Source of the DNA: an uncultured Gemmiger sp.
Lineage (GTDB): Bacteria > Bacillota > Clostridia > Oscillospirales > Ruminococcaceae
Assembly (NCBI GenBank): GCA_944388175.1
Contig: CALXHR010000001.1
Span: forward strand, 476,221-540,220
Length of the DNA: 64,000 nucleotides
Reading direction: 5' to 3'
In this document: piece by piece, positions 18,996-56,918 of the stretch
Layout: each line of letters starts with the position of its first letter
Numbering within the stretch: position 1 is the first letter of the stretch
Made by a program: the position numbers and the translations under genes
Notes under the pieces: model-generated
What the model was told of the DNA's origin: nothing
The model's database searches: none
What the model saw: the letters and a program-made list of their open reading frames with translations, nothing else

Positions 18996-19336
18996 TACTT
19001 TCGCCTCCTACTAAAATTTGTGCCTTAGGCGAGCCGATAAATTACACACGTTTCCGGGTGTTTCACTGCTTCGCATGACAAAATCCGGTGAACCGCTGTG
19101 CGCAGTTCTCCCGGAAAGAATCATCACAAAGTAGCTGAACATTGGTCCGTGCCGCAGAATGCAGCGCCGTACATATCCCTTTGTTTCCGTAATTCTTTCG
19201 CCCGGTTCTAAGATCGGACATACTCCGCGGAAAAACCCGCCTGCCCTAAGGCGTAGCGGCGGCAACCTCCCGCATCAACGCATATCGCGGCTTGCGCAGA
19301 ACGCTTGCAGCAATCTGCCCAAGCCTTTCGCAGCCG
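18996..19336 (-). promoter_or_regulatory. Long structured 5' leader of the S10 operon
   Basis: About 340 nt lie between the operon promoter and rpsJ with no convincing gene. On the minus strand, a GC-rich stem followed by GTTTTT (stem within 19237-19260, T-run 19231-19235) looks like an attenuator. The same CCGC/GCGG segment (19237-19240) can instead pair with 19227-19230, which would hide the T-run in a loop. A further interrupted hairpin (CCGG...GAACTGC/GCGGTTC...CCGG) lies at 19084-19113. Autogenous control is inferred, not shown. Confidence 0.5.
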
Positions 19337-34855: not shown

Positions 34856-35734
34856 TTACATCTGTGCAGCATTTGCCACAGGAAACGGGGGAAGCGGCAA
34901 ATTTGAAATCAATAATTCTTGTCCCTGTGTGCGCACCCGCGAGGCGCAAGTGTAATCCAAAAAGAATGGTTGGTACCTGGCGCCAGTATCTCCATATAAC
35001 CCACAAATAAAAGGATCGTCATCATAGCTGATAATCCAATCTAGACGATGGGCGCCTCGAACATATTGCGATAATGCAATATGGTCTTGATTTGTATAAT
35101 AATGCCTATAGATTTTTGATCCTTTGACATAATAGGGGGGATCAAAATAGGCGAAGCAATCCTCTTGCTGAAAGCGAGCATTCTGTGTGCGCATAAATTG
35201 CAATGCATCGCCCAAGTGAACATCTACTCTATCCCTAAAGGCAGCCAGTTGATTAATAATCGCGACAATCTTTGCCTTATTAAATCGACAATCAATCGTA
35301 TACTTAGAAGTTTGGTTAATTCCTCCTATGGGGTTTGCCATGAGGATTCCAGAAAAATTGGTGCGATTAAAGAACAGCCCCGCGAAGGCTAATTCAATCA
35401 ATGGTGCTTGGTCTAATTGTGTCATTTCCCGATAGGGTAGCTGTTGGAGCCAAGTGTCAATTGTTATGGGGGTAACCTCAATTAAGTTGCACAGAGCTTC
35501 AGTATCATGAAATACACAATGCCAGAACGCATACAAGAGAATATCTTTTTCGCATAGCACTAAATGCCCAATACGATTACGCTGGAGCAACTCAAGCCCC
35601 ACAGCAGCACTTCCCGCATAAGGCTCATAAAATGTACACCCGAGGAGATTGTTTGCCTCTAAGAGTGCATCGATATAACCTACTAATGATCTTTTTGCGC
35701 CGGGATAGCGCAAAGGGTTAATTGTCTCGGGCAA
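34856..35734 (-). CDS. DNA adenine N6-methyltransferase (Dam/D12 class)
   Basis: 292 residues. The N-terminal PLRYPGAKRSLVGYI, motif I YEPYAGSAAVGLELL and motif IV DPPYYVKGSKIY define a D12-class (alpha-group) adenine methylase; FFNRTNFSGI is also typical. The target sequence cannot be read. It starts 12 bases after the ParB-like gene ends and is probably translated with it. No restriction endonuclease gene is adjacent. Confidence 0.85.
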   Translation of the reverse strand: MPETINPLRYPGAKRSLVGYIDALLEANNLLGCTFYEPYAGSAAVGLELLQRNRIGHLVLCEKDILLYAFWHCVFHDTEALCNLIEVTPITIDTWLQQLPYREMTQLDQAPLIELAFAGLFFNRTNFSGILMANPIGGINQTSKYTIDCRFNKAKIVAIINQLAAFRDRVDVHLGDALQFMRTQNARFQQEDCFAYFDPPYYVKGSKIYRHYYTNQDHIALSQYVRGAHRLDWIISYDDDPFICGLYGDTGARYQPFFLDYTCASRVRTQGQELLISNLPLPPFPVANAAQM

Positions 35735-35746
35735 AATACCATCCCC

Positions 35747-37300
35747 TCAATTAATCATGTTAATGATGCCTTGAATGAGTGCAAACATTCCACCTGCTGC
35801 AATGGCTTCAAGGGACGCAGCTGTCACATTAATGTTACCAGGATAATGAATGTTGGCGTTCAAGAAATCACGGTGCGTCGCGGCGATTACACGATCATAG
35901 AATAATACCATATCTCGATTGGGAAAGACTGTCGCTTTATTTGCTTCAATATTAATAAAGTCTTCCATGGATTTCAATGTAGGGAAAGAACTGTTTCTTA
36001 AGGTCTGACAATATGCACCCCAAAGCCCAACTTGCATTAGGCGAAGCCGTAATGCCTGCTCGTACACCGTTCTTAGAACCATACCAGAGGCAATGGGGAA
36101 CGACTCATAGGCCTTATGTCTCCCACAATTAGTATTCGACAGTCCATAAAGTTCATTAATTGCGTAGAGTAGTCCTTGATGCTGCTGATTTGCAGGATCA
36201 AGCTTTCCGTTCCAGCATATTGTTTCAAAGAACGATCTGGGGGAAGGACCTCCGGGGCGAGGGCCACCGGTTGTGTTAGCCGTGTTGTTTCCTGCCGGAT
36301 TGTCATTCCCGTGATTGGCAGGTGGAGGCGTATCGCCGTGTGGATGCCCACCTCCTTCACCCGCAGGAGGTTCTTCTGTTCCGTTTTCATCTTGAGGAGG
36401 AGGCATATCGGGATCGTCTTCCGCCGCATTATATTCGGCATCAACAACTGCTTGCAAAAGGGAATGGATTCCTTCTACATCAGTTAGTACATGTCGCGTT
36501 GTAACCGTTTCTTCAACGATTGCTTTTTCAAAGACCAATTGAGTAATTCGATCAAAAAGATCAACAGGCAGAGAACTGATGGTATTAAAGGTATCATCAA
36601 AAGAGATGCCCAAAAATTCTCTCGGGCTTACCTTGGTGCCGACCGGGAATTCGAATTTTGCCTTAAAAATTCTCCAAAAAGGGTCTGTTTTAAGTACAAC
36701 GATTTCCTTGTTGAAATCGGGGTGGGCGGCACAGTACTTTTCATATACAGAGTAAAAGAACTTATAGTCTCTAATATCCTCTTTGATGTCCCCCTCGCGT
36801 ACCCCTGTGATTCTTGACAAATCATGAACACTCTGGCCTTGCCCGTTTTTATAGTTTGCAGCAAAAAACTGTTTCTTAGCCAAAGGTTTCCATTGCTTCA
36901 CGCCATCAATATGACGTTTGGTCATTAGCTCAAGTGCAGAATTTCTATCGGGAAGAATGTCAACTTCAATGTTGCTGCAGTTTGTAAGGATGGATGCAGA
37001 TGTATGCGGAATGCGATGTGCAAACCCATCTGGAATGAGTTCGCGGTTTAATAACATTTGGAGCGAACATGTACGGCGATTGCCCTCAACCACAACATAC
37101 CTATCGCCTTCTTGCAAAACAACAATACGCTCTCCAGGCAAAAGGCTGCCATAGGTATTAATATCAGTTGCTAACTGACACACATCTTCATAGGTGACTA
37201 AATACTTTCTTATGTCCGCTTGTTCACGACTTTGCAATATAACAAAGCGCGGATTTTCAGTATCCAGCAATAGATCTAATGGAGAAACCCGGATGGCCAT
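35747..37300 (-). CDS. ParB/Srx-fold protein with unknown C-terminal domain
   Basis: 517 residues. Residues ~1-110 form a ParB N-terminal-like (Srx/ParB nuclease) domain (SPLDLLLDTENPRF...YGSLLPGERIVVL...YVVVEGNRRTCSLQML), with the conserved GNRR patch. A HTH-like middle follows (NGQGQSVHDLSRITGVREGD), then a Pro/Gly/Asn-rich linker (~310-370) and a helical C-terminal domain I do not recognise. Such proteins are nucleotide-dependent switches or nucleases. The operon with a DNA methylase suggests a modification/defence module, which is inference. ATG 37300 has AAGGGGGG upstream. Confidence 0.72.
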   Translation of the reverse strand: MAIRVSPLDLLLDTENPRFVILQSREQADIRKYLVTYEDVCQLATDINTYGSLLPGERIVVLQEGDRYVVVEGNRRTCSLQMLLNRELIPDGFAHRIPHTSASILTNCSNIEVDILPDRNSALELMTKRHIDGVKQWKPLAKKQFFAANYKNGQGQSVHDLSRITGVREGDIKEDIRDYKFFYSVYEKYCAAHPDFNKEIVVLKTDPFWRIFKAKFEFPVGTKVSPREFLGISFDDTFNTISSLPVDLFDRITQLVFEKAIVEETVTTRHVLTDVEGIHSLLQAVVDAEYNAAEDDPDMPPPQDENGTEEPPAGEGGGHPHGDTPPPANHGNDNPAGNNTANTTGGPRPGGPSPRSFFETICWNGKLDPANQQHQGLLYAINELYGLSNTNCGRHKAYESFPIASGMVLRTVYEQALRLRLMQVGLWGAYCQTLRNSSFPTLKSMEDFINIEANKATVFPNRDMVLFYDRVIAATHRDFLNANIHYPGNINVTAASLEAIAAGGMFALIQGIINMIN

Positions 37301-37339
37301 AATCGTGCCCCCCTTAATCAACACATAGAAACACTTCTC

Positions 37340-37367
37340 ATAATATAAATATACCATATTTTGTCGA
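37340..37367 (-). promoter_or_regulatory. Promoter of the ParB-methylase operon
   Basis: Minus strand TCGACA (37362-37367), 16-base spacer, TATTAT (37340-37345), about 40 bases before the ParB-like start. Confidence 0.65.
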
Positions 37368-37541: not shown

Positions 37542-37702
37542 TTATAAAATTTCAGCCTTGCGACATTCTTGCACAAAATCCGCACAGTAAAGTGCTTTCC
37601 CCGGTGAACCCTCTGTGCTAAACTGAATACACACAAAGCTGCCCCTCATTGCGGGCATTCCAAGAGCTGTACACGGCACAATGCCGTGTGCGGCTCTTTT
37701 TC
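37542..37702 (+). ncRNA. Possible small RNA or leader ending in a strong terminator
   Basis: This plus-strand stretch contains a small hairpin (TGCCC...GGGCA, 37640-37657) and then a 15-bp stem with a CAA loop (37664-37696) followed by TTTTT. No convincing promoter was found, so it could also be the end of a longer transcript. The opposite strand has a short open frame (37542-37658) of doubtful value. Confidence 0.4.
37664..37702 (+). terminator. Strong intrinsic terminator before the conjugative element genes
   Basis: Stem GAGCTGTACACGGCA with its complement (two G-U pairs), 3-base loop, T-run at 37697-37701. It insulates the following transfer-type operon from upstream transcription. Confidence 0.8.
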
Positions 37703-37762
37703 TTTGTGTCAATTTACACAGGAGGTACCCCACATGACCACGCCACCCTTTTACCTTTGTTA

Positions 37763-37924
37763 GACGTACATAGTACGCCGCCGGGACGCAAACGGCCAAG
37801 GCGGTAAGCCTATTACGTCAATATTGCGTCCTGCATACGTTGACTCGCGCCTTTGGCGTACTCTATGCGTCTCCACGGCGTATACCCAAAAACGTGGACG
37901 CATCCACTGCGTCACGATTACGTC
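37763..37924 (+). repeat. Helically phased CGT-core repeats (~11 bp period)
   Basis: Copies of a loose T/G-A/G-CGT-C/A motif or its complement recur at about 11-base steps: 37763, 37774, 37785, then 37814, 37825, 37836, 37846, 37855, 37866, 37877, and again 37908 and 37919. Clear units are TACGTC, TGCGTC, TACGTT and GGCGTA. The array ends 18 bases before the first gene of the transfer-type operon, overlapping where its promoter or leader should be. Iterated sites for a multimeric DNA-binding protein (operator, iteron or oriT accessory) are inferred. Confidence 0.6.
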
Positions 37925-37941
37925 TAAAGAAGGTGATTTCT

Positions 37942-38475
37942 ATGAAACTGCGCGCCGATCTGTACCGCCGGGAAGCCGGCGAACTGCTGCGCAATATTTC
38001 CATGTACCCTGGGCTGTCCGAAACACAGCTTTGCCACTTCTTCCCTGGCAAGGAAGACACCGTCCACACGCTGTTGGCCCGCATGGTACATACCGGGCGG
38101 GCCATTCTCTCTGCCGAGAGTCACTACTTTGCCAGCGTCGATCAACTTGAACAACACGATCCGAACACTTCCCGCGCCGTGTGGGTGTTGTTAGACCTTC
38201 TTCCGCAGGTAGAGTACCACGCCGCAGCCGAGTTCCCGGCCACGTTGCTCTGCTTTGCCGGCGGGCAGGCGAGTGAAATCGTCTGCGTCCCCATCGGACG
38301 GGAGGTACTGATCGATCAGGTACTACAACAGCGCGAAAAAAGCGACACCCAGGTCATCGCCCTGGTGGACGATGTTGCGCAGATTTCCTCGCTAACTGCC
38401 GCTTGTATCTCGGCTTTTTGCACTGTGGATGCGGACGGTCATGTCAGCTACTACCAGAAAGCAGGCAAAGCATGA
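37942..38475 (+). CDS. DUF5697-like winged-helix protein
   Basis: 177 residues. The N-terminal LRNISMYPGLSETQLCHFFP followed by TVHTLLARMVHTGRAIL reads as a winged helix. The rest resembles DUF5697, encoded at the head of transfer operons in Firmicutes conjugative elements. ATG 37942 was chosen for its AAGAAGGTGAT site; an earlier in-frame ATG at 37840 lies inside the repeat array. Stop overlaps the next ATG (ATGA). It is a candidate binder of the phased repeats just upstream, untested. Confidence 0.72.
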   Translation: MKLRADLYRREAGELLRNISMYPGLSETQLCHFFPGKEDTVHTLLARMVHTGRAILSAESHYFASVDQLEQHDPNTSRAVWVLLDLLPQVEYHAAAEFPATLLCFAGGQASEIVCVPIGREVLIDQVLQQREKSDTQVIALVDDVAQISSLTAACISAFCTVDADGHVSYYQKAGKA

Positions 38476-39191
38476 ACCGTGAAAAGCTATACGACCGTAT
38501 CATGCTCGAACACCGCAACCTGATCCAGATCCATAAAAAGCTGTACGAAGCTCAGCACCTTCCGGTGGGCTCGGTGCTCGACGAGGTCGCTGCCCTTTTG
38601 ACTGATGCGGCCCTTTTGGCCGAGAAGACCACCTGCCGCCTGCGCAATCTGTTGTTCGATACCGCTCCCATACCGCGGCCCGACTATCTTTCCCGCGCTG
38701 CCGCCGCACAGGGCGTTTCCGTTTCTTATCAGGACGGCATTCTTTGCGTGCGGCTTCCGCGTTTGCTGCCAAAAAAACGGCAGAAAAGCAGTACCGCCTA
38801 TTTGCTTTCGCCGTTGCAGGCGGCGCTGGACAGTTTTTGCAAAGCACACCCTTTTCCCCTGTTCGGTCGCTGCGTGGTCTGTGTGGAACATGTATACGAC
38901 GCCGCGCTGCTCCGCTTCCAGATGCGGGACTACGATAACCTGCAACTCAAGCCTGTGCTGGACATAGTCACCCTCTATGCCATGCAGGACGACAGCGGGT
39001 CACTCTGCGACCTCTACCAAACTTCCTGCCTGGAATATGAACCATGTACCCGCGTGACCGTTCTGCCACCGGAGGCCTTTTTGCGCTGGCTTAAAGACCA
39101 TGGGAAGGTCTCCAACACCCTGTCCGAAAACCACTCGATTTTGCCTCAAACTTCGCCGACAGCCGCCCAAGTGCCGCCGGCGCTCCTGTGA
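38472..39191 (+). CDS. DUF6100-like protein of conjugative elements
   Basis: 239 residues, helical N-terminus (EHRNLIQIHKKLYEAQHLPV) then an alpha/beta region with PRLLPKKRQKSSTAYLLSPL. Resembles DUF6100, always found beside DUF5697 in such elements; no biochemical role known. Its ATG overlaps the previous stop, so translation is coupled. Confidence 0.72.
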   Translation: MNREKLYDRIMLEHRNLIQIHKKLYEAQHLPVGSVLDEVAALLTDAALLAEKTTCRLRNLLFDTAPIPRPDYLSRAAAAQGVSVSYQDGILCVRLPRLLPKKRQKSSTAYLLSPLQAALDSFCKAHPFPLFGRCVVCVEHVYDAALLRFQMRDYDNLQLKPVLDIVTLYAMQDDSGSLCDLYQTSCLEYEPCTRVTVLPPEAFLRWLKDHGKVSNTLSENHSILPQTSPTAAQVPPALL

Positions 39192-39277
39192 TGCAGCATC
39201 TGACACCTGCACGGCGAGCATTTTGCACCGAAGCCAGAAGCCGCCCCGGTACAATTCACCTTTTGGAACGAGGAAAC

Positions 39278-40384
39278 ATGGAAAAACAAATGCAACTTCC
39301 TACGCCCGGCACCAGAGCCTACGACCTCCTTGCCTTGACCGCCCTTTCCGGCGAGTACCCGGCAAGTTCGGTCAGCCGCCTGGTCGGCAGTACAGCCTAT
39401 GCCGAAAAGGTTGTGACCCGGCTCAAAGCAGATGGATTTCTCCGCACTGTGTACCGTGACAGGCTTCGGGGCTATCGGCTGACGGCCGCGGCCAAACACA
39501 GGCTGCTGGCCTCAGACTCCCGCCGTTTTGCCTTCTATCTGACCGGCAGCACCGACACCAACCGCGTTAAATCCGAGGCGATTCGCCGGCTACGGCTGCA
39601 TCGGGTCGCACAGGTGTACACTGTGGTCCACAAGGCCGGAATCGCGCTGTTCCGCGACGAAAAGCCCTGCCCTTTTTCCTCCGCTTCTCTTCACCATTAC
39701 GCCCCAACCGCCTTCTACAGTTCCCGGGAAGTCAAGGAGATCGGCGTTGAGACCGTCAAAATTCGCGGTTCCCGCATGGTCGGGGTGCTGTCCGCCCCCG
39801 GCGGGCCCTGCCTCTGCTACAACTGTGCCGGGAATATGCCCACCTTTGATCATCAATCCGAACTGCGGGCCAAAGTGTTCTTCCAGAACCTGGCGCGCCG
39901 TAACGGTACTGCCCAGAGCAACGTCACCGGCCTGCTGTTTGCCGACCGCATTGAGACCTTGGGCCAGGTACTGGCCCAGGCCCACACCCGCGACCGGGAA
40001 TACTTTTTGTTCGGGGACGGTTGTGAGCCATTCTACTTTCTCACCAGCGACCACCGCGGCGACGCGCTGCTGCGGTTATTGTGTGCTCCCTCTTTGATGC
40101 AAGCGTTTGGGAGGGTGCTGCATCAGGGCTTTGCGCCGTCGATCCCTGGCAGTCAAATCGAGCAAGACGCCATGACTGCCGCCGGGCAGCCGGTTCTGTT
40201 CGCTTGCCTGCCCGATTTGCCCCGCCTGTTCCGCTTTTGCTCGGCGCTGGAACTGTACGACCGGCAGGGTGTGCTGGTCTGCTTCGATTTCCAGGCAGCC
40301 GCTCTGAAACAGAGCTGCGGCGGCCACATCACCCTGCAACTCATCGACTTCGATAAATTTGAGAGGGGGTTCTTATCCATTTGA
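39278..40384 (+). CDS. Hypothetical winged-helix protein of the transfer operon
   Basis: 368 residues. The N-terminal TPGTRAYDLLALTALSGEYP then SRLVGSTAYAEKVVTRLKAD looks like a MarR/wHTH fold with RLRGYRLTAAAKHRL as the wing. The C-terminal ~250 residues are unassigned and end with an alpha/beta pattern (FLFGDGCEPFYFLTSDH). Start chosen at 39278 for GAGG; the reading frame extends upstream to 39188. The stop overlaps the TTG start of the VirD4-like gene. Confidence 0.65.
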   Translation: MEKQMQLPTPGTRAYDLLALTALSGEYPASSVSRLVGSTAYAEKVVTRLKADGFLRTVYRDRLRGYRLTAAAKHRLLASDSRRFAFYLTGSTDTNRVKSEAIRRLRLHRVAQVYTVVHKAGIALFRDEKPCPFSSASLHHYAPTAFYSSREVKEIGVETVKIRGSRMVGVLSAPGGPCLCYNCAGNMPTFDHQSELRAKVFFQNLARRNGTAQSNVTGLLFADRIETLGQVLAQAHTRDREYFLFGDGCEPFYFLTSDHRGDALLRLLCAPSLMQAFGRVLHQGFAPSIPGSQIEQDAMTAAGQPVLFACLPDLPRLFRFCSALELYDRQGVLVCFDFQAAALKQSCGGHITLQLIDFDKFERGFLSI

Positions 40385-42321
40385 AGTTGCCGTCCAAAAA
40401 AATCCTGTTGTCCGCCACAGGCAGCGCCCTGCTGCTCGGCTATGCTGGCGGTTTTCTCTCCCAGATTTTGAACGGCTATGCTGCCTGGCGAGAGAGCGGC
40501 GGCATCCCGGGCAGTGGGACTTCCCCGCCGTTGCCATCTCTATCCCCAGCCGCCTGCCTGCGAGGTCTACTGACTTTCCCGTATGGCCTGTACGGTCTTT
40601 TGCTGTGCGGCGGCACGGTGGTTTTGTTGATTCTTTATCGCAGGCTCTCTGCTGACAGCGGTGAGTACGACATCGACCGCAACTTTACTTACGCGTCCAG
40701 CGGCACTTATGGCACATCCGGCTGGATGACCCGGCAGGAACTCAGCGGCGTCCTGGAACTTGTCCATGACCTGCGCGGCCATACTGGCACCGTTTTGGGA
40801 ATGTTGGGCAGCGAAATCGTCTGCGTGCCAGAGAAGAGCCGACTCAACCGCAACATCGCCGTGTACGGTGTCAGTGGCAGCATGAAGACCCGCTCCTATT
40901 GCCTGAACCGTATCCTTCAGGGCGTAGCCGCCGGGGAATCGCTGGTCATCAACGACCCGAAATCCGAGCTCTACGAGACTACCAGCGAATATCTCGCAAC
41001 CAAGGGCTACATCGTCCGCGTGTTCAATCTGGTCAGCCCGGATTGTTCCGACGCCTGGAACTGTCTGGAGGAAGTGGACGGTCAGGAATTGAACGCGCAG
41101 CTCTTTGTGGAGGTGGTCATCAAGAACACCCAGGGCAACAGCAAAGGCGACCGTTTTTGGGACAGCGCCGAAATGAATCTGCTCAAGGCGCTGGTGCTGT
41201 ATATAGACCTCAACTATCCGCCAGAGCAGCGTAACATCGGGCAAGTCTATCGCCTGCTGACCGAATGTTCTGACACCGAGCTGAGACAGATATTTGAAAT
41301 GCTTCCGATCCAGCACCCGGCCAAGGGGCCTTTCAACCTGTTTCAGCAGGCATCGGACACAGTGCGCAGCGGCGTCATCATTGGGCTCGGCACCCGGCTG
41401 CAGGTGTTCCAGTCGCAGCTGATCCGTCAAATCACCAGCGCCAAGGAGATCGACCTGGAGCTGCCCGGCCAAAAGCCCTGCGCCTATTTTCTTGTGACCA
41501 GCGACCAGGACAGTACTTTTGACTTTCTGGCCTCGCTGTTTCTCTCATTTGTGTTCATCAAGCTGGTGCGCTATGCCGACCGCAACTGCAAGGGCGGACA
41601 ACTGCCCGTTCCCGTCCACATTCTGGCCGAGGAGATCACCGCCTGCGGCACCATCTCGGAACTTTCCCGGCGGATCAGTGTGATCCGTTCCCGCGGCATT
41701 TCCATTTCCTGCGTGTTCCAGAATCTGGCCGGTCTGCAGAACCGCTACCCGCAGAACCAGTGGCAGGAGATCTTGGGCAACTGCGACATCCAGCTGTTCC
41801 TGGGCTGCACCGACCCGCTGACCGCCGAGTATGTCTCAGCACGCACCGGTGTCGCCAGTGTGGCGGTGTCCAGCAGTTCCAAGGTGCTCAATACCTTCCG
41901 GCTGTCAAACTACACGCCGGAATATCGGGAGACCAGCGGCGTTGGCCGCCGCCCGGTGCTGACGCCGGACGAGGTGCTGCGCCTGCCCATTGAGGAAGCC
42001 CTGGTCATTGTGCGTGGCAAAAAGGTTCTGCGTGTCCGCAAAATGGACTATTCACAACATCCTGCCTACCGCAAATTGAGAAACTGTAAGGCATCCGCCC
42101 ATGTGCCGGCGTGGCGGGCTGCTTTGGAAACTGGCGGCGAGGAACAGGACATGACGGTAGAGCCGCTGCCCCAGGCTGCTGCCAAGCCGCCCACCGGGAA
42201 AAAGAAGGCCACCAAAACCAAACAGCCTGCGAAAGCATTGAGCCCCAAACCCTCTGACCCCAAACCGTCAACCGATGGCGTTGTCGCCATCGACAAGGAA
42301 TCCATTCTTTTCAAACCATAA
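40381..42321 (+). CDS. VirD4/TraG-type conjugal coupling protein
   Basis: 646 residues. Two N-terminal membrane helices (LLLGYAGGFLSQIL; GLLLCGGTVVLLILY), Walker A GVSGSMKTRSY, then VINDPKSELYETTSEYL, Walker B-like VHILAEEITACG and the FQNLAGLQNRYP segment, all typical of T4CP ATPases that pass the relaxosome to the secretion channel. The C-terminus is a Lys/Pro-rich tail. TTG start at 40381 overlaps the previous stop, with AGAGGGGG upstream. No VirB4 or relaxase accompanies it in this window. Confidence 0.88.
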   Translation: MKLPSKKILLSATGSALLLGYAGGFLSQILNGYAAWRESGGIPGSGTSPPLPSLSPAACLRGLLTFPYGLYGLLLCGGTVVLLILYRRLSADSGEYDIDRNFTYASSGTYGTSGWMTRQELSGVLELVHDLRGHTGTVLGMLGSEIVCVPEKSRLNRNIAVYGVSGSMKTRSYCLNRILQGVAAGESLVINDPKSELYETTSEYLATKGYIVRVFNLVSPDCSDAWNCLEEVDGQELNAQLFVEVVIKNTQGNSKGDRFWDSAEMNLLKALVLYIDLNYPPEQRNIGQVYRLLTECSDTELRQIFEMLPIQHPAKGPFNLFQQASDTVRSGVIIGLGTRLQVFQSQLIRQITSAKEIDLELPGQKPCAYFLVTSDQDSTFDFLASLFLSFVFIKLVRYADRNCKGGQLPVPVHILAEEITACGTISELSRRISVIRSRGISISCVFQNLAGLQNRYPQNQWQEILGNCDIQLFLGCTDPLTAEYVSARTGVASVAVSSSSKVLNTFRLSNYTPEYRETSGVGRRPVLTPDEVLRLPIEEALVIVRGKKVLRVRKMDYSQHPAYRKLRNCKASAHVPAWRAALETGGEEQDMTVEPLPQAAAKPPTGKKKATKTKQPAKALSPKPSDPKPSTDGVVAIDKESILFKP

Positions 42322-42339: not shown

Positions 42340-43464
42340 ATGGAACTTTACAACGACCCGACCACCCTGCCCATCGCTGAACAAACCACCGAGGAAGAAG
42401 TGTTGATTCCCGCGTCTGCGGAGGGGGAACCCGATACCGAAATGCCCACGCCGCTTCCCGCCTCTCTACTGGACGATAGCCAAGATGATCCCTCGTCTAC
42501 ACCCCCGGCGGTCGCTGAAGAACCGGCTCCGTCCCGCTCCCGCCGCAGAACGAGCACTGCCAGCTCGATTTTGACCATCGCCAGCCGCGGCAGCGTGGAG
42601 AGTGAGGACGCCAGAGAAGCCGCCGCCTGGCATGAGATCCACAACGCCTACCGCACCCGTAAGATTTTGAGCGGTCATTTGGGTGGCATCGAGCAGACGG
42701 AAGGCGGCAAAACCATTGCTACTGTCGAATACAACGGTTTTCGCATTGCCATCCCGCTGAAAGAAATGATGATCCAGCTCGGGAATTCCACTGCTCAGGG
42801 CACCTCCGCAAGGACGCTGCGCCAGAACAAACTCCTGGGTAATATGCTCGGCGCCGAGATCGACTTTGTGGTGCGCGGCATCGACTCGGGCAGCCGCAGC
42901 GTTGTTGCCAGCCGCCGCGATGCCATGCTGCGCAAGCGCCAACTGTTTTATCTCACCCCCGGGCCCGGCGGCCGCCCCCGTATCGAGCCAAACAGCATTG
43001 TGCAGGCGCGGGTGATCGCAGTGGCTGAAAAGACAGTGCGCGTCGAAGTGTTCGGCGTCGAGACTTCCATCCTGGCCCGCGACCTTTCCTGGGACTGGAT
43101 CGGCGACGCTCATGACCGTTTTGCGGTCGGCGATGAGGTTCTTGTACGCGTACAAGAGGTGCGCGGCGATACCCCCGAAACGCTGTCTGTCCGTGCGGAT
43201 ATTAAGAGCACCACTCCCAACACCTGCGCTGAAAATCTGAAGAAATGCCGTGTACAGAGCCGTTATGCCGGCCGTGTCACCGATGTACACCGCGGTATCG
43301 TCTATGTACGGCTTGCCAACGGGGTCAACGCGGTTGCTCACTCCTGCTATGACCACCGTATGCCTGGCAAGAAGGATGATGTCAGCTTTGTGGTCACCAA
43401 GCTGGATACCGAGCACAGTATCGCCGTGGGCATCATCACCAGGATCATCCGGCAGAATCTGTAA
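42340..43464 (+). CDS. S1-domain RNA-binding-like protein
   Basis: 374 residues. An acidic, Pro-rich N-terminus (~1-70) precedes a domain with S1/OB-like strands (GGHLGGIEQT-type, IVQARVIAVAEKTVRVEVFG; SRYAGRVTDVHRGIVYVRLA). Proteins of this type are regular companions of VirD4-like genes in clostridial elements. Likely binds nucleic acid; role in transfer unknown. GGAGG before ATG. Confidence 0.72.
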   Translation: MELYNDPTTLPIAEQTTEEEVLIPASAEGEPDTEMPTPLPASLLDDSQDDPSSTPPAVAEEPAPSRSRRRTSTASSILTIASRGSVESEDAREAAAWHEIHNAYRTRKILSGHLGGIEQTEGGKTIATVEYNGFRIAIPLKEMMIQLGNSTAQGTSARTLRQNKLLGNMLGAEIDFVVRGIDSGSRSVVASRRDAMLRKRQLFYLTPGPGGRPRIEPNSIVQARVIAVAEKTVRVEVFGVETSILARDLSWDWIGDAHDRFAVGDEVLVRVQEVRGDTPETLSVRADIKSTTPNTCAENLKKCRVQSRYAGRVTDVHRGIVYVRLANGVNAVAHSCYDHRMPGKKDDVSFVVTKLDTEHSIAVGIITRIIRQNL

Positions 43465-43503: not shown

Positions 43504-44379
43504 ATGTCTGTGTTTCGAGTCGAACGCAATCGCAATTATACCGTCATGAGCAATTACCATTTGCGCGACAGGCGCTTGTCGCTGAAGGCAAAGGGACTTC
43601 TCTCCCAGATGTTGTCACTGCCGGAGGACTGGGATTATACCCTGGGCGGCCTGGCCCAGATCAACCGCGAGAAGGTCGACGCGATCCGCGCCGCCGTGCG
43701 TGAACTGGAAGCGGCCGGATATATCGTCCGCTCCCGCGAGCGGGATGCGAAAGGTCGGCTGCGCGGCGCAGACTATGTGATCTACGAGCACCCCCAAGTG
43801 CAAACGCCTGTGTCGGATTCACCTACGTTGGAAAATCCAATGTTGGAGGATCCTGCGTTGGATTTCCCTGCGTCGGGAAATCCAACGCAATTAAATAAAG
43901 ATAAACAAAGCAAAGAATTACAAAATACCGATTCTCTTCCTTTCTGTGTTTTGCAGGGCAAAGACAGCCATACCAGCCCGCGCGCCACGCCAGCCTCAGA
44001 ACCGGCTTCATTCTGCCCCAAGGCTGTGCACGATCAGATCGAACTGGACACCCTATGCCGCCAAAACCCGGAAGATGCCCCCCTGTATCAGGAAATCGCA
44101 GGCCTGCTGACCGATACCCTTGCCAGCCGCCGCGAGACCATCCGTGTATCTGGTATGGATCTGCCAAAAGACACCGTGCGCAAGCGGCTGTATCAACTCT
44201 CCAGCGAACATGTACGTTTTGTGGTCGAAAGCCTCAAGCAAAACCGAACCCAAGTACGCAACCCCAAACAGTACATACTGGCCGCTCTGTTCAATGCACC
44301 GGTGAGTATGTACACAAAAACGGCGCTGGATGTCGGGCGCGGGCTCGCCGTCGGCTTCCAGCCGCCCGAAAAGTGTTAA
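43504..44379 (+). CDS. Replication-type DUF6017 protein with N-terminal winged helix
   Basis: 291 residues. N-terminal MSVFRVERNRNYTVMSNYHL and LSLKAKGLLSQMLSLPEDWD are the winged helix shared with replication initiators of conjugative elements. The middle contains degenerate repeats (PTLENPMLEDPALDFPASGN). The C-terminal SSEHVRFVVESLKQNRTQVR NPKQYILAALFNAP (split) matches DUF6017. Probably handles element replication or its control. AGGAGG precedes ATG 43504. Confidence 0.78.
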   Translation: MSVFRVERNRNYTVMSNYHLRDRRLSLKAKGLLSQMLSLPEDWDYTLGGLAQINREKVDAIRAAVRELEAAGYIVRSRERDAKGRLRGADYVIYEHPQVQTPVSDSPTLENPMLEDPALDFPASGNPTQLNKDKQSKELQNTDSLPFCVLQGKDSHTSPRATPASEPASFCPKAVHDQIELDTLCRQNPEDAPLYQEIAGLLTDTLASRRETIRVSGMDLPKDTVRKRLYQLSSEHVRFVVESLKQNRTQVRNPKQYILAALFNAPVSMYTKTALDVGRGLAVGFQPPEKC

Positions 44380-45597: not shown

Positions 45598-46761
45598 TTG
45601 AAATGCACCCTAATGCACAGAGAACTGCCGGTAGCAGTGCTCGGTGTGAATGACATCAGCGGCACCATATACCGCGTGGACGAAGTCTTTCACGTTGAAC
45701 ACTTGCCACTCGGCACCCCTGGGCGTACCAAGAAAGAGACCGCAAAGAATTTGAATGCCTGGCTTTCCGGCCGTATGATCCCGGCCAGCCGTTCCGGGTT
45801 CCAGCAGGCAATGCAAGCCGCCATGCTTCAAAAGAACACCGAAGTTTCCGCTTCTATTCTTTTGTTGAAATGCTACGGACTAAGCCTTTCCGACCAGTAC
45901 TGGCTCAACCCGGCGGCCGCACCGCTCCAGTGGAGGGAAATCAACTTCTACAACAACCCCTTCAGCGATGATGTGGGCGACCTGCTGTTCGGGAAGATAC
46001 CCCGCAACGATTCGCTCGACCTGGTCTCCCCCTGCAATACTTCCGACGGCTGGTTACAGAAAAAGTGGAAGATTTCAGATGGCCGGCGCGTCCTCATCAA
46101 AGGCGGCAGCGGCATGGCGCAGCAGGAGCCTTTCAACGAGGTAGTAGCGTCCGCTGTCTGCCGCCGGCTGAACATTCCGCATGTGGACTACTCCCTGATT
46201 TGGGAGGATGGCAAACCGTACAGCCTCTGCGCCAATATGACCGCTGACCGACAGGATCTGGTCAGCGCCTACGCACTGTACACATCTGCCGAAAAGCCAG
46301 ACGGGGTTTCTACCTTTGACTATATCCTGGCGCGCTGTGAGGCGCTGGGGATCCCCAGCGCCCGGAAGTTCCTGAGCCAGATGATCGTTCTGGATTTCCT
46401 GCTCTGCAACCAGGACCGCCACATGGGCAATTTTGGCGCGATCCGCGACGCTGTCACGCTGGAGTGGCAGAGCATGGCGCCAGTCTATGACAGCGGCACC
46501 AGCCTGTGGTTCGACCAATATGCCAGCCAGATCGATGCTGTCGCGGACGCCGCAGCCAAACCGTTTTGCGCTACCCACAACCAGCAGCTTGCATTGGTTG
46601 CCGGTGACTTGGATTGGCTTGACCCGTCTGCCTTGAACGGGTTGGAAGATGAGGTTTTCTCCATCTTCGAACAAGCTCGCTTCGGCGAAGCTTCCCGTGC
46701 CGAGATTTTGAGTCAGGCGGTTGCACAGCGTTGCAAACTGCTTTGCCAGCTTGTTCCATAA
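45598..46761 (+). CDS. HipA-like kinase-fold protein
   Basis: 387 residues. The kinase-like C-terminal half has IKGGSGMAQQEPFNEVVASA (nucleotide loop) and LDFLLCNQDRHMGNFG, the catalytic NxDRHxxNF motif of HipA/PI-kinase-like proteins; VYDSGTSLW supplies the DSG metal motif. HipA kinases phosphorylate translation factors, but this ICE-borne group has no HipB partner here and its role is open. TTG 45598 was chosen because MKCTLMH is the usual N-terminus of this group. Own promoter and terminator. Confidence 0.8.
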   Translation: MKCTLMHRELPVAVLGVNDISGTIYRVDEVFHVEHLPLGTPGRTKKETAKNLNAWLSGRMIPASRSGFQQAMQAAMLQKNTEVSASILLLKCYGLSLSDQYWLNPAAAPLQWREINFYNNPFSDDVGDLLFGKIPRNDSLDLVSPCNTSDGWLQKKWKISDGRRVLIKGGSGMAQQEPFNEVVASAVCRRLNIPHVDYSLIWEDGKPYSLCANMTADRQDLVSAYALYTSAEKPDGVSTFDYILARCEALGIPSARKFLSQMIVLDFLLCNQDRHMGNFGAIRDAVTLEWQSMAPVYDSGTSLWFDQYASQIDAVADAAAKPFCATHNQQLALVAGDLDWLDPSALNGLEDEVFSIFEQARFGEASRAEILSQAVAQRCKLLCQLVP

Positions 46762-54868: not shown

Positions 54869-55060
54869 ATGCATATACCCACAAACGACCCTGATATCAC
54901 CTGCGGGATGACAGATCAGGAAATGGACGAGCGTTTTGCCGAAATCATCGAACTCGCCAATCAGGAGAAGCTGATCAAAGGCACGCCACTTCCCATATTT
55001 GCCCCCATCACTAAAAAGGCGTATCTGGAATATCCAGACGGGAGGCGCGAGTATGCCTAA
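54869..55060 (+). CDS. Antitoxin of the zeta-type toxin-antitoxin pair
   Basis: 63 residues, near-identical to the gene at 52313 from the GTAAACTTAGAGGAG leader to the stop, with changes such as IEL/VEL and IFAPI/KFDPI. Its stop overlaps the toxin start by 8 bases, the classic coupled arrangement. A TGTTATAAT extended -10 (54812-54820) lies upstream. Confidence 0.78.
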   Translation: MHIPTNDPDITCGMTDQEMDERFAEIIELANQEKLIKGTPLPIFAPITKKAYLEYPDGRREYA

Positions 55061-55760
55061 AATCGAGCGACTACCAGGAATCATTGTTTTTGCAGGGCTG
55101 AACGGCTCCGGGAAATCAACGGTAACCAGAATCGCAAAGGTAGTCCAGCCCTATATCAACGCCGATGACATCAAGACTGCATTGAACTGTTCTGATCTGG
55201 AGGCAGCGCAGGTTGCCGAAAAAATGCGTAATGCACAAGTCGATGCCGGAGAAGGTTTCACCTTCGAAACGGTATTATCCACCTCTAGAAATTTGGAACT
55301 ACTGAAGCGGGCCAAAGCAAAAGGTTTCTTTATCCGCTGCATTTATATATTGACAGCTTCCCCAGACATCAATGTGATTCGCGTCAAAGCACGTGAAGCC
55401 GCAGGCGGACATGGTGTCCCAGAGGATAAAGTTTGCTCTCGTTACGAAAGAGCGTTGGCCTTGATTCCTGAACTTGTATCTGTTTGCGATATATGTCATA
55501 TCTATGACAACAGTGAACGTCCTTTCCGCATCTTCAAAAAGCGAAAAGAGCGGTGCTATTTTTTCAAAAAATGCTTTTTGGCACAGACAAGATATTATTG
55601 CCCTTACAAAGGTCAGCGACATAGTCCCGTTTCCTTCAGTGTGAAATCAATTCATATGCATATAAACCCACAGGCCGCAGCGCATCAGCACGTTGCGGCT
55701 TGCTCCAGTTATATGTTCTCTTTATCTGTTGCGCAGAAGCGAAGCCGTTCGTTCCCATGA
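55053..55760 (+). CDS. Zeta-type toxin kinase, probably C-terminally frameshifted
   Basis: 235 residues. FAGLNGSGKSTVTR is the P-loop; INADDIKTAL and EGFTFETVLSTSRNLELLKR are the other conserved parts of zeta/PezT-like kinases that phosphorylate UDP-GlcNAc and block wall synthesis. After ICHIYDNSERPFRIFKKR the usual end (AFWHRQDIIALTKVSDIV) is found in another frame, so a shift near 55545 gives a foreign C-terminus that reads through the palindrome at 55672. Activity may be altered or lost. Confidence 0.78.
   Translation: MPKIERLPGIIVFAGLNGSGKSTVTRIAKVVQPYINADDIKTALNCSDLEAAQVAEKMRNAQVDAGEGFTFETVLSTSRNLELLKRAKAKGFFIRCIYILTASPDINVIRVKAREAAGGHGVPEDKVCSRYERALALIPELVSVCDICHIYDNSERPFRIFKKRKERCYFFKKCFLAQTRYYCPYKGQRHSPVSFSVKSIHMHINPQAAAHQHVAACSSYMFSLSVAQKRSRSFP
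55672..55701. repeat. 30-bp palindrome, copy 3 (imperfect)
   Basis: AGGCCGCAGC ... CGTTGCGGCTT, a decayed copy of the elements at 52181 and 52575, located in the zeta toxin's shifted 3' end. Confidence 0.65.
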
Positions 55761-55949: not shown

Positions 55950-55978
55950 TTGAAGCCTTCACCAAGACTTGATATAAT
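55950..55978 (+). promoter_or_regulatory. Promoter of the FRG-domain gene
   Basis: TTGAAG (55950-55955), 17-base spacer, perfect TATAAT (55973-55978), 22 bases before the start. Confidence 0.8.
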
Positions 55979-56000
55979 AAAGCCCAAAAGAGGTGAACAC

Positions 56001-56918
56001 ATGGTAACTAAGATTCATAATTTAAGCGAGTTTTTGAACCTATTAAATGACTACAAGACTCAATTCTCTAAGACGTACCGAACAGGAGGCTTCATGTTCC
56101 GTGGCATGAGCGATATATCATGGAGCCTCCTTCCCGGGATATTTAGAAAGTACCCCGAGAAGCAAAATTCCAAAAAGATTACCAGTGCTTCATACTCGGG
56201 GAATATTTTCTCTATCAACGAGTATGAAATTCTATCACATTTCAGAAAAGAGGCAAGTGGTTTACTTACTCACATATCTCCTAAAGACGACTTCACTTGG
56301 CTTCAATACGCACAGCATTATGGCGTCCCCACACGTCTTCTAGATTTTACAGCAAATCCGTTAGTCGCCATGTATTTTTGCTGCCAAAGCGAAAGTGAGA
56401 CCGACGGTGTAGTCTGGATAATTAACACCGTGACCTTTGAAAGGTGGACAACCAGTGAACTGCCTTGTAACGATAGGCACATTGCTTATACCCGAGAGGC
56501 AGTTATAAATTCTATCATGAGAGAAATGCGCGGTGAACTTGACAGAGGTGAAGTTAACAGTGAACCTCATGAAAAGAAAAATCTACCAATCATGTTTATC
56601 CCTCCCTATATTGATCAACGCATGAGTGCACAATCCAGCCGCTTTTTGCTTTGGGGGAACAACCAATCCGCATTAGAGAACATGATAAAAGCCGACAACG
56701 AAATGCAACTGTGCCCAGGGGTAAGGTTTGATGTGCAAGGCGACCAACGCTTTTGGGCTAAGACAATCATTCCTGCCAGATGTAAACATAGCATTATGAG
56801 AGAGCTCGATCTTCTCAATATTAACGAAAAAAGTATATTCCCTGGGTTGGACGGTATAGGAAAATACATCAACAAATACTATCAAAATAATGTTGATGAC
56901 ATGCTAGAACTTCTATAA
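56001..56918 (+). CDS. FRG-domain protein
   Basis: 305 residues. Named for the motif seen here as FMFRGMSDISWSLLPGIFRK; also WLQYAQHYGVPTRLLDFTAN PLVAMYF (split), the second conserved FRG block. FRG proteins occur in phages, mobile elements and defence islands; the biochemical activity is not settled. Alone behind its own promoter with GAGGTGA before the ATG. Clearly more AT-rich than the transfer genes to its left. Confidence 0.88.
   Translation: MVTKIHNLSEFLNLLNDYKTQFSKTYRTGGFMFRGMSDISWSLLPGIFRKYPEKQNSKKITSASYSGNIFSINEYEILSHFRKEASGLLTHISPKDDFTWLQYAQHYGVPTRLLDFTANPLVAMYFCCQSESETDGVVWIINTVTFERWTTSELPCNDRHIAYTREAVINSIMREMRGELDRGEVNSEPHEKKNLPIMFIPPYIDQRMSAQSSRFLLWGNNQSALENMIKADNEMQLCPGVRFDVQGDQRFWAKTIIPARCKHSIMRELDLLNINEKSIFPGLDGIGKYINKYYQNNVDDMLELL

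Follow-up and report, generated by a model that had tools for sequence, protein, structure and literature searches.

What might a row of short CG-centred sites, spaced at about one turn of the double helix, do directly in front of a transfer operon? The question is raised by positions 37763–37924 of a 64,000-nucleotide stretch (the 'window', meaning the whole of the DNA analysed and the reference for all coordinates below) from an uncultured Gemmiger sp. (GenBank assembly GCA_944388175.1, contig CALXHR010000001.1). The array found there precedes the gene of a protein of the DUF5697 family, the first gene of an operon already called a transfer operon in a preliminary description of the sequence, a designation borne out by its VirD4-like coupling protein of the CD1115 family (E-value 7e-118). 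The answer favoured here, with a probability of about 0.55, is that the array is a cooperative multi-site target in double-stranded DNA (dsDNA), most likely bound by DUF5697, which serves as the operator of its own DUF5697–DUF6100–VirD4 operon. The geometry and phasing of the sites, their conservation, their position, the linkage to DUF5697 and the synteny are directly established; binder and function are inferred.

The array coordinates given in the preliminary description are correct. It had reported CGT-core repeats about every 11 bp; this repeat is real and its cores stand at exact 11-bp steps, but they form four triplets with gaps and not a continuous ladder. In total, 12 on-step RCGY cores (R, purine; Y, pyrimidine) make up four triplets with inner steps of 11 and 11 bp, namely triplet A at 37763–37790 (GACGTA, TACGCC and GACGCA, cores at 37764, 37775 and 37786), triplet B at 37814–37841 (TACGTC, TGCGTC and TACGTT, cores at 37815, 37826 and 37837), triplet C at 37855–37882 (GGCGTA, TGCGTC and GGCGTA, cores at 37856, 37867 and 37878) and triplet D at 37897–37924 (GACGCA, TGCGTC and TACGTC, cores at 37898, 37909 and 37920), none of them assigned to a strand. 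The gaps between triplets measure 29, 19 and 20 bp, and two extra RCGY cores lie off step at 37847 and 37892. Sites are present in both orientations and the letters between cores vary, the signal being the spacing of the cores and not a recurrence of whole 11-mers. Coding does not explain the array, as had been noted. The preceding stop codon is on its 5′ side and the DUF5697 ribosome-binding site on its 3′ side, with the DUF5697 start codon 18 bp beyond the end of the last core.

Eight pairs of RCGY cores are exactly 11 bp apart, against a mean of 0.41 expected; none of 5000 dinucleotide-preserving shuffles reached eight, and still none did so when the maximum was taken over gaps of 3–40. The runner-up location in the 64-kb window has two such pairs. 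Autocorrelation of the letters, the check suggested beforehand, gave a signal at lag 11 (z 2.4, p 0.017) that is non-significant over 60 lags (p 0.41), and plain letter autocorrelation was dropped as proof of the array, being too weak across all lags. Since the RCGY motif was picked after the window had been seen, the relatives provide the independent test. In 66 upstream regions (near-copies included), 94 equally spaced CG-core triplets occur at 11 bp versus 1.7 expected, and the other triplet steps from 8 to 23 bp yield 0–8 each in the same regions. The window observation is confirmed and the helix-phased core array is real.

The relatives were gathered from overlapping sets of genomes. DUF5697 (PF18954) is present in 5 of 35 genomes at genus level, in 30 of 394 at order level, in 19 of 391 at class level and in 5 of 398 at phylum level. 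A contig scan supplied 30 named loci, and further ones came from two records of plasmids and from a pair of unannotated 'Bacteriophage sp.' contigs, which carry virB4 and look like conjugative elements; a viral contig collection contained no relative. Four loci below the family cut-off (L041, L086, L087 and L092; L numbers designate loci) were left out, as were listed matches to which no locus was assigned, and one locus (L022) begins at a contig edge. A DUF5697 match with readable upstream DNA is available for 83 loci. Of these, 36 qualify under a simple 11-bp array rule, which requires a minimum of two 11-bp pairs together with four linked cores at any place within 400 bp and can admit coding sequence (L016, L046 and L047); dereplication reduces these 36 loci to 16 arrays. 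Seventeen of the 83, with a weak match or outside a virB4/DUF6100 context (L030–L035, L038, L040, L072, L075, L081–L085, L088 and L090), were excluded from the 66 mentioned above, and 0 of these 17 meet the simple rule. Under a stricter rule (at least three pairs within 100 bp), the 565,892 bp fetched, which are mostly DUF5697 flanks with overlaps and near-copies included, contain 34 clusters at step 11, 18 at step 22 (2 × 11) and 0–4 at any one of the remaining steps in the range 6–25. Each of these loci has a single strict 11-bp cluster, and in all 31 cases with a mapped DUF5697 start it stands immediately before that gene; the remaining 3 of the 34 are the window locus fetched again, and the others include several near-copies. 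Named genomes bearing the array are labelled Gemmiger, Fournierella, Flavonifractor, Pseudoflavonifractor, Hungatella, Enterocloster, Eisenbergiella and others. A run of the check proposed at the outset, namely a search for the same array before other DUF5697/DUF6100 operons, gave a divided answer: the array recurs in many of them, and not in all.

Individual loci show further arrangements. Before divergent DUF5697 genes, core steps of 7, 16, 31, 7 and 21 bp (L037) and of 16, 31, 7 and 21 (L039) are seen, and upstream of another DUF5697 gene (L080) repeated AGGAGTATTAAA and ATACGCG elements replace the 11-bp array. In L067 the array is kept and the gene of an S1-domain protein comes directly after DUF5697, with DUF6100, the third gene and VirD4 undetected.

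The placement of the sites on a single face of the DNA, suspected in the preliminary description, is supported by the best period of 10.4 bp over the 16 dereplicated arrays. Pair distances in these arrays have their peaks at 11, 22, 30–33, 41, 52 and 63 bp. Phase coherence reaches its maximum at 10.4 bp with a mean R of 0.85, compared with 0.57 at 11.0. The 11-bp step overshoots the turn of B-DNA and the gaps correct this overshoot, which favours recognition of dsDNA from one face. Gaps within 13–48 bp account for 17 of the 22 inter-run gaps, and all 17 measure 18–22 or 27–31 bp, with none at 23–26; the five omitted from this count as lying outside that range measure 52, 73, 185, 198 and 208 bp. 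When the gaps were jittered by up to 5 bp in the 15 gap-bearing arrays, 0 of 5000 trials were as coherent as observed. The 10.4-bp preference derives from all positions together. Site flanks differ by clade (GACGCC, TACGCA or AACGTT), and both the letters and the orientation of the sites vary among elements while the 11-bp step persists. Orientation is mixed even within runs in the window and in L013, L048 and L059, and is nearly uniform only in some arrays (L046 and L017). Since single sites carry little information, specificity would have to come from cooperativity.

Which protein recognizes these sites is suggested by the company that the array keeps, and on such sequence associations DUF5697 is the most likely binder. 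The spacing class follows the DUF5697 tree with 12 changes, versus a mean of 21.9 after shuffling (0 of 200 shuffles as low). This tree is a quick one (50 rows kept, near-identical ones dropped, labels partly by eye, 22 of 47 inner branches weakly supported), and its agreement with the classes is helped by near-copies. A separate DUF5697 subfamily carries single triplets at 18 bp, significant in L024, L027 and L077 and recognized by eye in L025 and L074; in L073, two triplets have a 10-bp step. In 8 of the 30 named loci, the array remains beside DUF5697 despite a gene between virB4 and the array. By eye, this intervening gene is radical-SAM-like (L048, L052, L053, L059, L060, L061, L064 and L068). 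Seven DUF6100 loci show no DUF5697 in the flank that was fetched, and none of them has an 11-bp cluster; this comparison (L127 and L129, below the cut-off, and listed matches to which no locus was assigned being left out) lends weak support to the DUF5697 linkage. The ParB-like protein encoded on the opposite strand just upstream of the array (35747–37357) was rejected as a general binder: no relative of it occurs in the flanks fetched for the 82 other loci, and one could lie elsewhere in these elements. As for gene order, the annotation of the Vescimonas fastidiosa plasmid pMM35_02 gives a PrgI-family protein, DUF5697, DUF6100, a hypothetical protein, VirD4 of the CD1115 family and S1, with a virB4 relative upstream of DUF5697. 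No virB4 relative is found between 33001 and 46000 in the window, and the source genome (69% complete) has a weak AAA_10 match only. The region from DUF5697 to VirD4 has the appearance of a conjugative element's coupling module.

In the mechanism proposed, weak and nearly symmetric RCGY-centred sites, 11 bp apart and in sets of about three, would act together, the sets often lying ~19 or 29 bp apart so that the sites would return to one face of B-DNA. The binder would be a protein encoded by the element, most likely DUF5697, with about one unit on each helical turn, and the bound units would form a short nucleoprotein filament or wrap, presumably with cooperativity. Because the array lies between a stop codon and the DUF5697 ribosome-binding site, such an assembly most likely represses or tunes the operon of DUF5697, DUF6100, the third gene and VirD4, which would amount to autoregulation of the coupling module; given this position, bound protein would cover any operon promoter in that gap or lie a short way downstream of it. 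If this is right, the unnamed families DUF5697 and DUF6100 acquire a role open to testing, together with a defined target in DNA. Neither name occurs in the open-access literature searched, other literature being outside the search.

The array finds its nearest working parallels in the operators of recombination directionality factors and of BldC, cooperative winged helix-turn-helix (wHTH) proteins that take up one DNA turn per unit on weak sites. Sites for Apl of phage 186, Xis of lambda and Cox of P2 are described as 10–11 bp apart, several weak ones in a row, with highly cooperative binding, and Apl is described as repressing two promoters as well (PMC7498355). The array shares with these operators the separation of sites by one helical turn; however, their sites are direct repeats, whereas mixed orientation prevails in the window and in the three relatives named above, and the adjoining gene encodes here a DUF5697 protein of 177 amino acids and there a small excisionase. 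Since mixed orientation departs from the defining direct-repeat feature, the array is not classed as a member of this group, though it may work alike. BldC is reported to protect tracts spaced by one helical turn along an extended promoter site and to form a head-to-tail filament (PMC5859096), and RdfS is presented as a wHTH oligomer of an integrative and conjugative element that binds its own promoter too (PMC11963761). A search of PDB sequences revealed no kinship with BldC or RdfS, and BldC targets are direct repeats, unlike the array. TraN of plasmid pIP501, a wHTH repressor of the operon of a type IV secretion system (T4SS), is reported to control its own promoter too, with a 34-bp site upstream of the origin of transfer (oriT) and a second promoter as its targets; the available text of that report (PMC10877727) describes no phased array such as the one found here. 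Triplets at 11 bp, re-phased to ~10.4 bp per turn and used in either orientation, are unlike the phased operators compared here.

Several observations weigh against an operator bound by DUF5697. The array is dispensable, since 28 of the 66 transfer-context loci fall outside the 11-bp class; their labels, assigned partly by eye, are 18-bp for five, 10-bp for one, other geometry for two and none for 20. Those labelled 'none' include L011 (one 11-bp triplet, p 0.035) as well as L063 and L071 (one 10-bp triplet each), and DUF5697 stands in a transfer context without a scored 11-bp array in L018, L020, L021, L049, L063, L069, L070, L071 and others. As regards phasing, the gaps alone are equally coherent at 11.0 (R 0.74) and at 10.5 (R 0.74), and two gaps of 31 contain an extra core, dividing them into 14 + 17 (L058) and 19 + 12 (L078). 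As regards the operon, no sigma-70 promoter was found within the window array, promoter candidates occur in 5 of 16 relative arrays with no common place, and the terminator-like hairpin 5′ of the window array means that the array may lie in a transcribed leader, which makes a simple operator less natural. As regards the binder, the DUF6100 comparison is affected on both sides: five of the seven DUF6100-only loci are divergent (E-value 1.5e-25 or weaker), and 0 of 3 DUF5697-bearing loci in it have a cluster, two of these beginning at the gene with the upstream DNA missing. The winged helix attributed beforehand to DUF5697 was a fold recognized by eye only, and neither it nor another known DNA-binding fold is matched by the protein in Pfam, NCBIfam, PHROGs or PDB sequences. 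Finally, the operon has a single shared history, so that the sites could instead be bound by DUF6100, by the third protein or by one that is encoded elsewhere.

The same position in front of VirD4 could be read as part of the transfer machinery itself. In this doubtful but serious alternative, the array would be a cis-acting transfer site on which DUF5697 or another protein loads and brings in the relaxosome or the coupling protein, in the manner of TcpK. In many relatives the array has virB4 on one side and the VirD4 operon on the other, which is consistent with it, and so is the example of pCW3, a clostridial conjugative plasmid described as having a 150-bp oriT with tandem short boxes and an adjoining gene for TcpK, a wHTH protein whose tandem binding boxes are three nucleotides apart (PMC6137059). 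The TcpK boxes, however, are 9-nt units with 3-nt linkers, and the relaxase gene tcpM lies beside that oriT, whereas none of the relaxase families searched (PF03432, PF03389 and PF02486, the last in four records only and not for L065) is found beside the array. The nearest PF03389 genes are ~22 kb (L055) and 35 kb (W02) away, remote matches lie at ~1.5 Mb (L065, PF03432) and ~2.75 Mb (L053, PF02486), all three families are absent in the 142 kb of W01 (L095, NZ_AP023417.1), and PF03432 is absent from the 69%-complete source genome. The oriT accessory region envisaged in the preliminary description thus found no positive support, the nearest relaxase of a tested family being at least 22 kb from the array wherever the distance is readable (distances were not assigned for L043, L050 and L068). 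On the other side, PF03432 relaxase genes are present on the operon strand ~52 kb (L052) and ~47 kb (L060) upstream of the array, and the two relaxases (L134 and L136) are 98% identical over 408 residues; with this identity and this strand, they may belong to the element. In W01, L053 and L065, arrays are accompanied by T4SS genes with no tested relaxase family nearby. A further reading, also to be regarded as doubtful, would see in the array an undescribed class of cis-acting module in conjugative elements of gut Clostridia, in which a DUF5697 filament on re-phased CG-centred triplets would select the element for VirD4 and the T4SS away from the relaxase gene. The PF03432 genes near the L052 and L060 arrays lower the odds of this reading; the idea of elements without a common relaxase is likewise weakened by these related genes 52 and 47 kb upstream.

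Three other readings fit the data less well. A centromere-like partition site of the parC or tubC type, with DUF5697 as centromere-binding protein, is improbable. The array does lie directly upstream of DUF5697, whose role as its binder is putative, and there is a precedent in TubR, whose winged helix-turn-helix is reported to contact tubC with formation of a superhelix (PMC9178275). The centromere sites parC and tubC are described as bound by the adaptors ParR and TubR, parC having sets of repeats; unlike them, the array has triplets and a nearly symmetric RCGY core. The operon genes tested (DUF5697, DUF6100, the third gene, VirD4 and S1) include no filament NTPase, whether ParM- or TubZ-like, and on pMM35_02 a ParM/StbA gene lies ~28 kb off with its own neighbour. 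A structured RNA or attenuator, in the form of a long rod that base pairs the end of the leader open reading frame (ORF) with the DUF5697 ribosome-binding region, is improbable to a similar degree, even though the window array folds well (z −4.6, or −6.2 in a separate run; −7.7 with the leader; −2.7 on the minus strand; −5.0 as DNA). Its outer arms (37753–37768 and 37919–37934, 16 nt) are 88% complementary, and over the 16 arrays the raw z averages −3.1, with 13 of 16 below 0. However, the mean z drops to −1.25 when the site 6-mers are kept and the linkers shuffled, and to +0.15 (window −2.1) when sites are randomly flipped, so that much of the folding is a by-product of sites in two orientations. 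In addition, 3 of 16 arrays fold no better than shuffles (L017, L047 and L052), no Rfam family is matched at the array and the period of 10.4 bp is unlike the ~11 of A-form RNA. With site 6-mers kept, a residual fold persists in L064 (−4.8), L042 (−3.2), L079 (−3.0) and the window (−2.7); an RNA rod was rejected as a general explanation, since fold beyond site effects is confined to this minority and not common to relatives, and a local RNA role may exist in these arrays. Finally, it is very improbable that the sites are replication iterons used in an autonomous stage of the element, and the iterons mentioned in the preliminary description found no positive support: a protein resembling replication initiators (HTH_36/DUF6017, phrog_4707) is encoded in the same region, but the array tracks DUF5697 and not this gene 5.5 kb away, and a step of 11 bp would be short for iterons.

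The setting of the array in the window can be described from its 5′ side onwards. A ParB-like protein with weak Noc similarity is encoded on the minus strand beside a D12-class adenine methyltransferase (34856–37357; phrog_9592, E-value 1.7e-53). On the plus strand follow the intrinsic-terminator-like hairpin (37662–37698; stem of 17 pairs, loop of 3, T-run), of which Gemmiger relatives show a similar version by eye, and a putative short leader ORF read from the sequence (37734–37763; MTTPPFYLC, stop TAG), which lies behind AGGAGG. The stop codon of this nine-codon ORF ends at the start of the array. Beyond the array, the plus strand encodes the 177-amino-acid DUF5697 protein (37942–38475; PF18954, E-value 4e-38), a DUF6100 protein of 239 amino acids whose start overlaps the preceding stop in ATGA (38472–39191; PF19595, E-value 3.9e-46), a third protein to which no family was matched (39188–40384), the VirD4-like coupling protein (40381–42321; PF02534, E-value 6e-48; NF045973, E-value 7.2e-118) and, next in the conserved order, the S1-domain protein (42340–43464; PF00575, E-value 1e-13). 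Relatives have a third gene too; in searches with the third protein, for which the start at 39320 was used, PDB sequences gave nothing credible for its fold, and its kinship with DUF5697 was rejected by profile comparison (probability 1.2%). The HTH_36/DUF6017 protein, which resembles phage replication initiators, is encoded at 43504–44379 (phrog_4707, E-value 1.5e-25). At gathering score, the sole Rfam match in the whole window is an S10-Clostridia ribosomal protein leader (RF03136, 49.3 bits, 19198–19286, minus strand), the array being without any family. The region that holds the transfer genes also encodes proteins with a HipA-like C-terminal domain (just below the cut-off), a zeta-toxin-like protein and an FRG-domain protein, at 45598–46761, 54999–55760 and 55950–56918.
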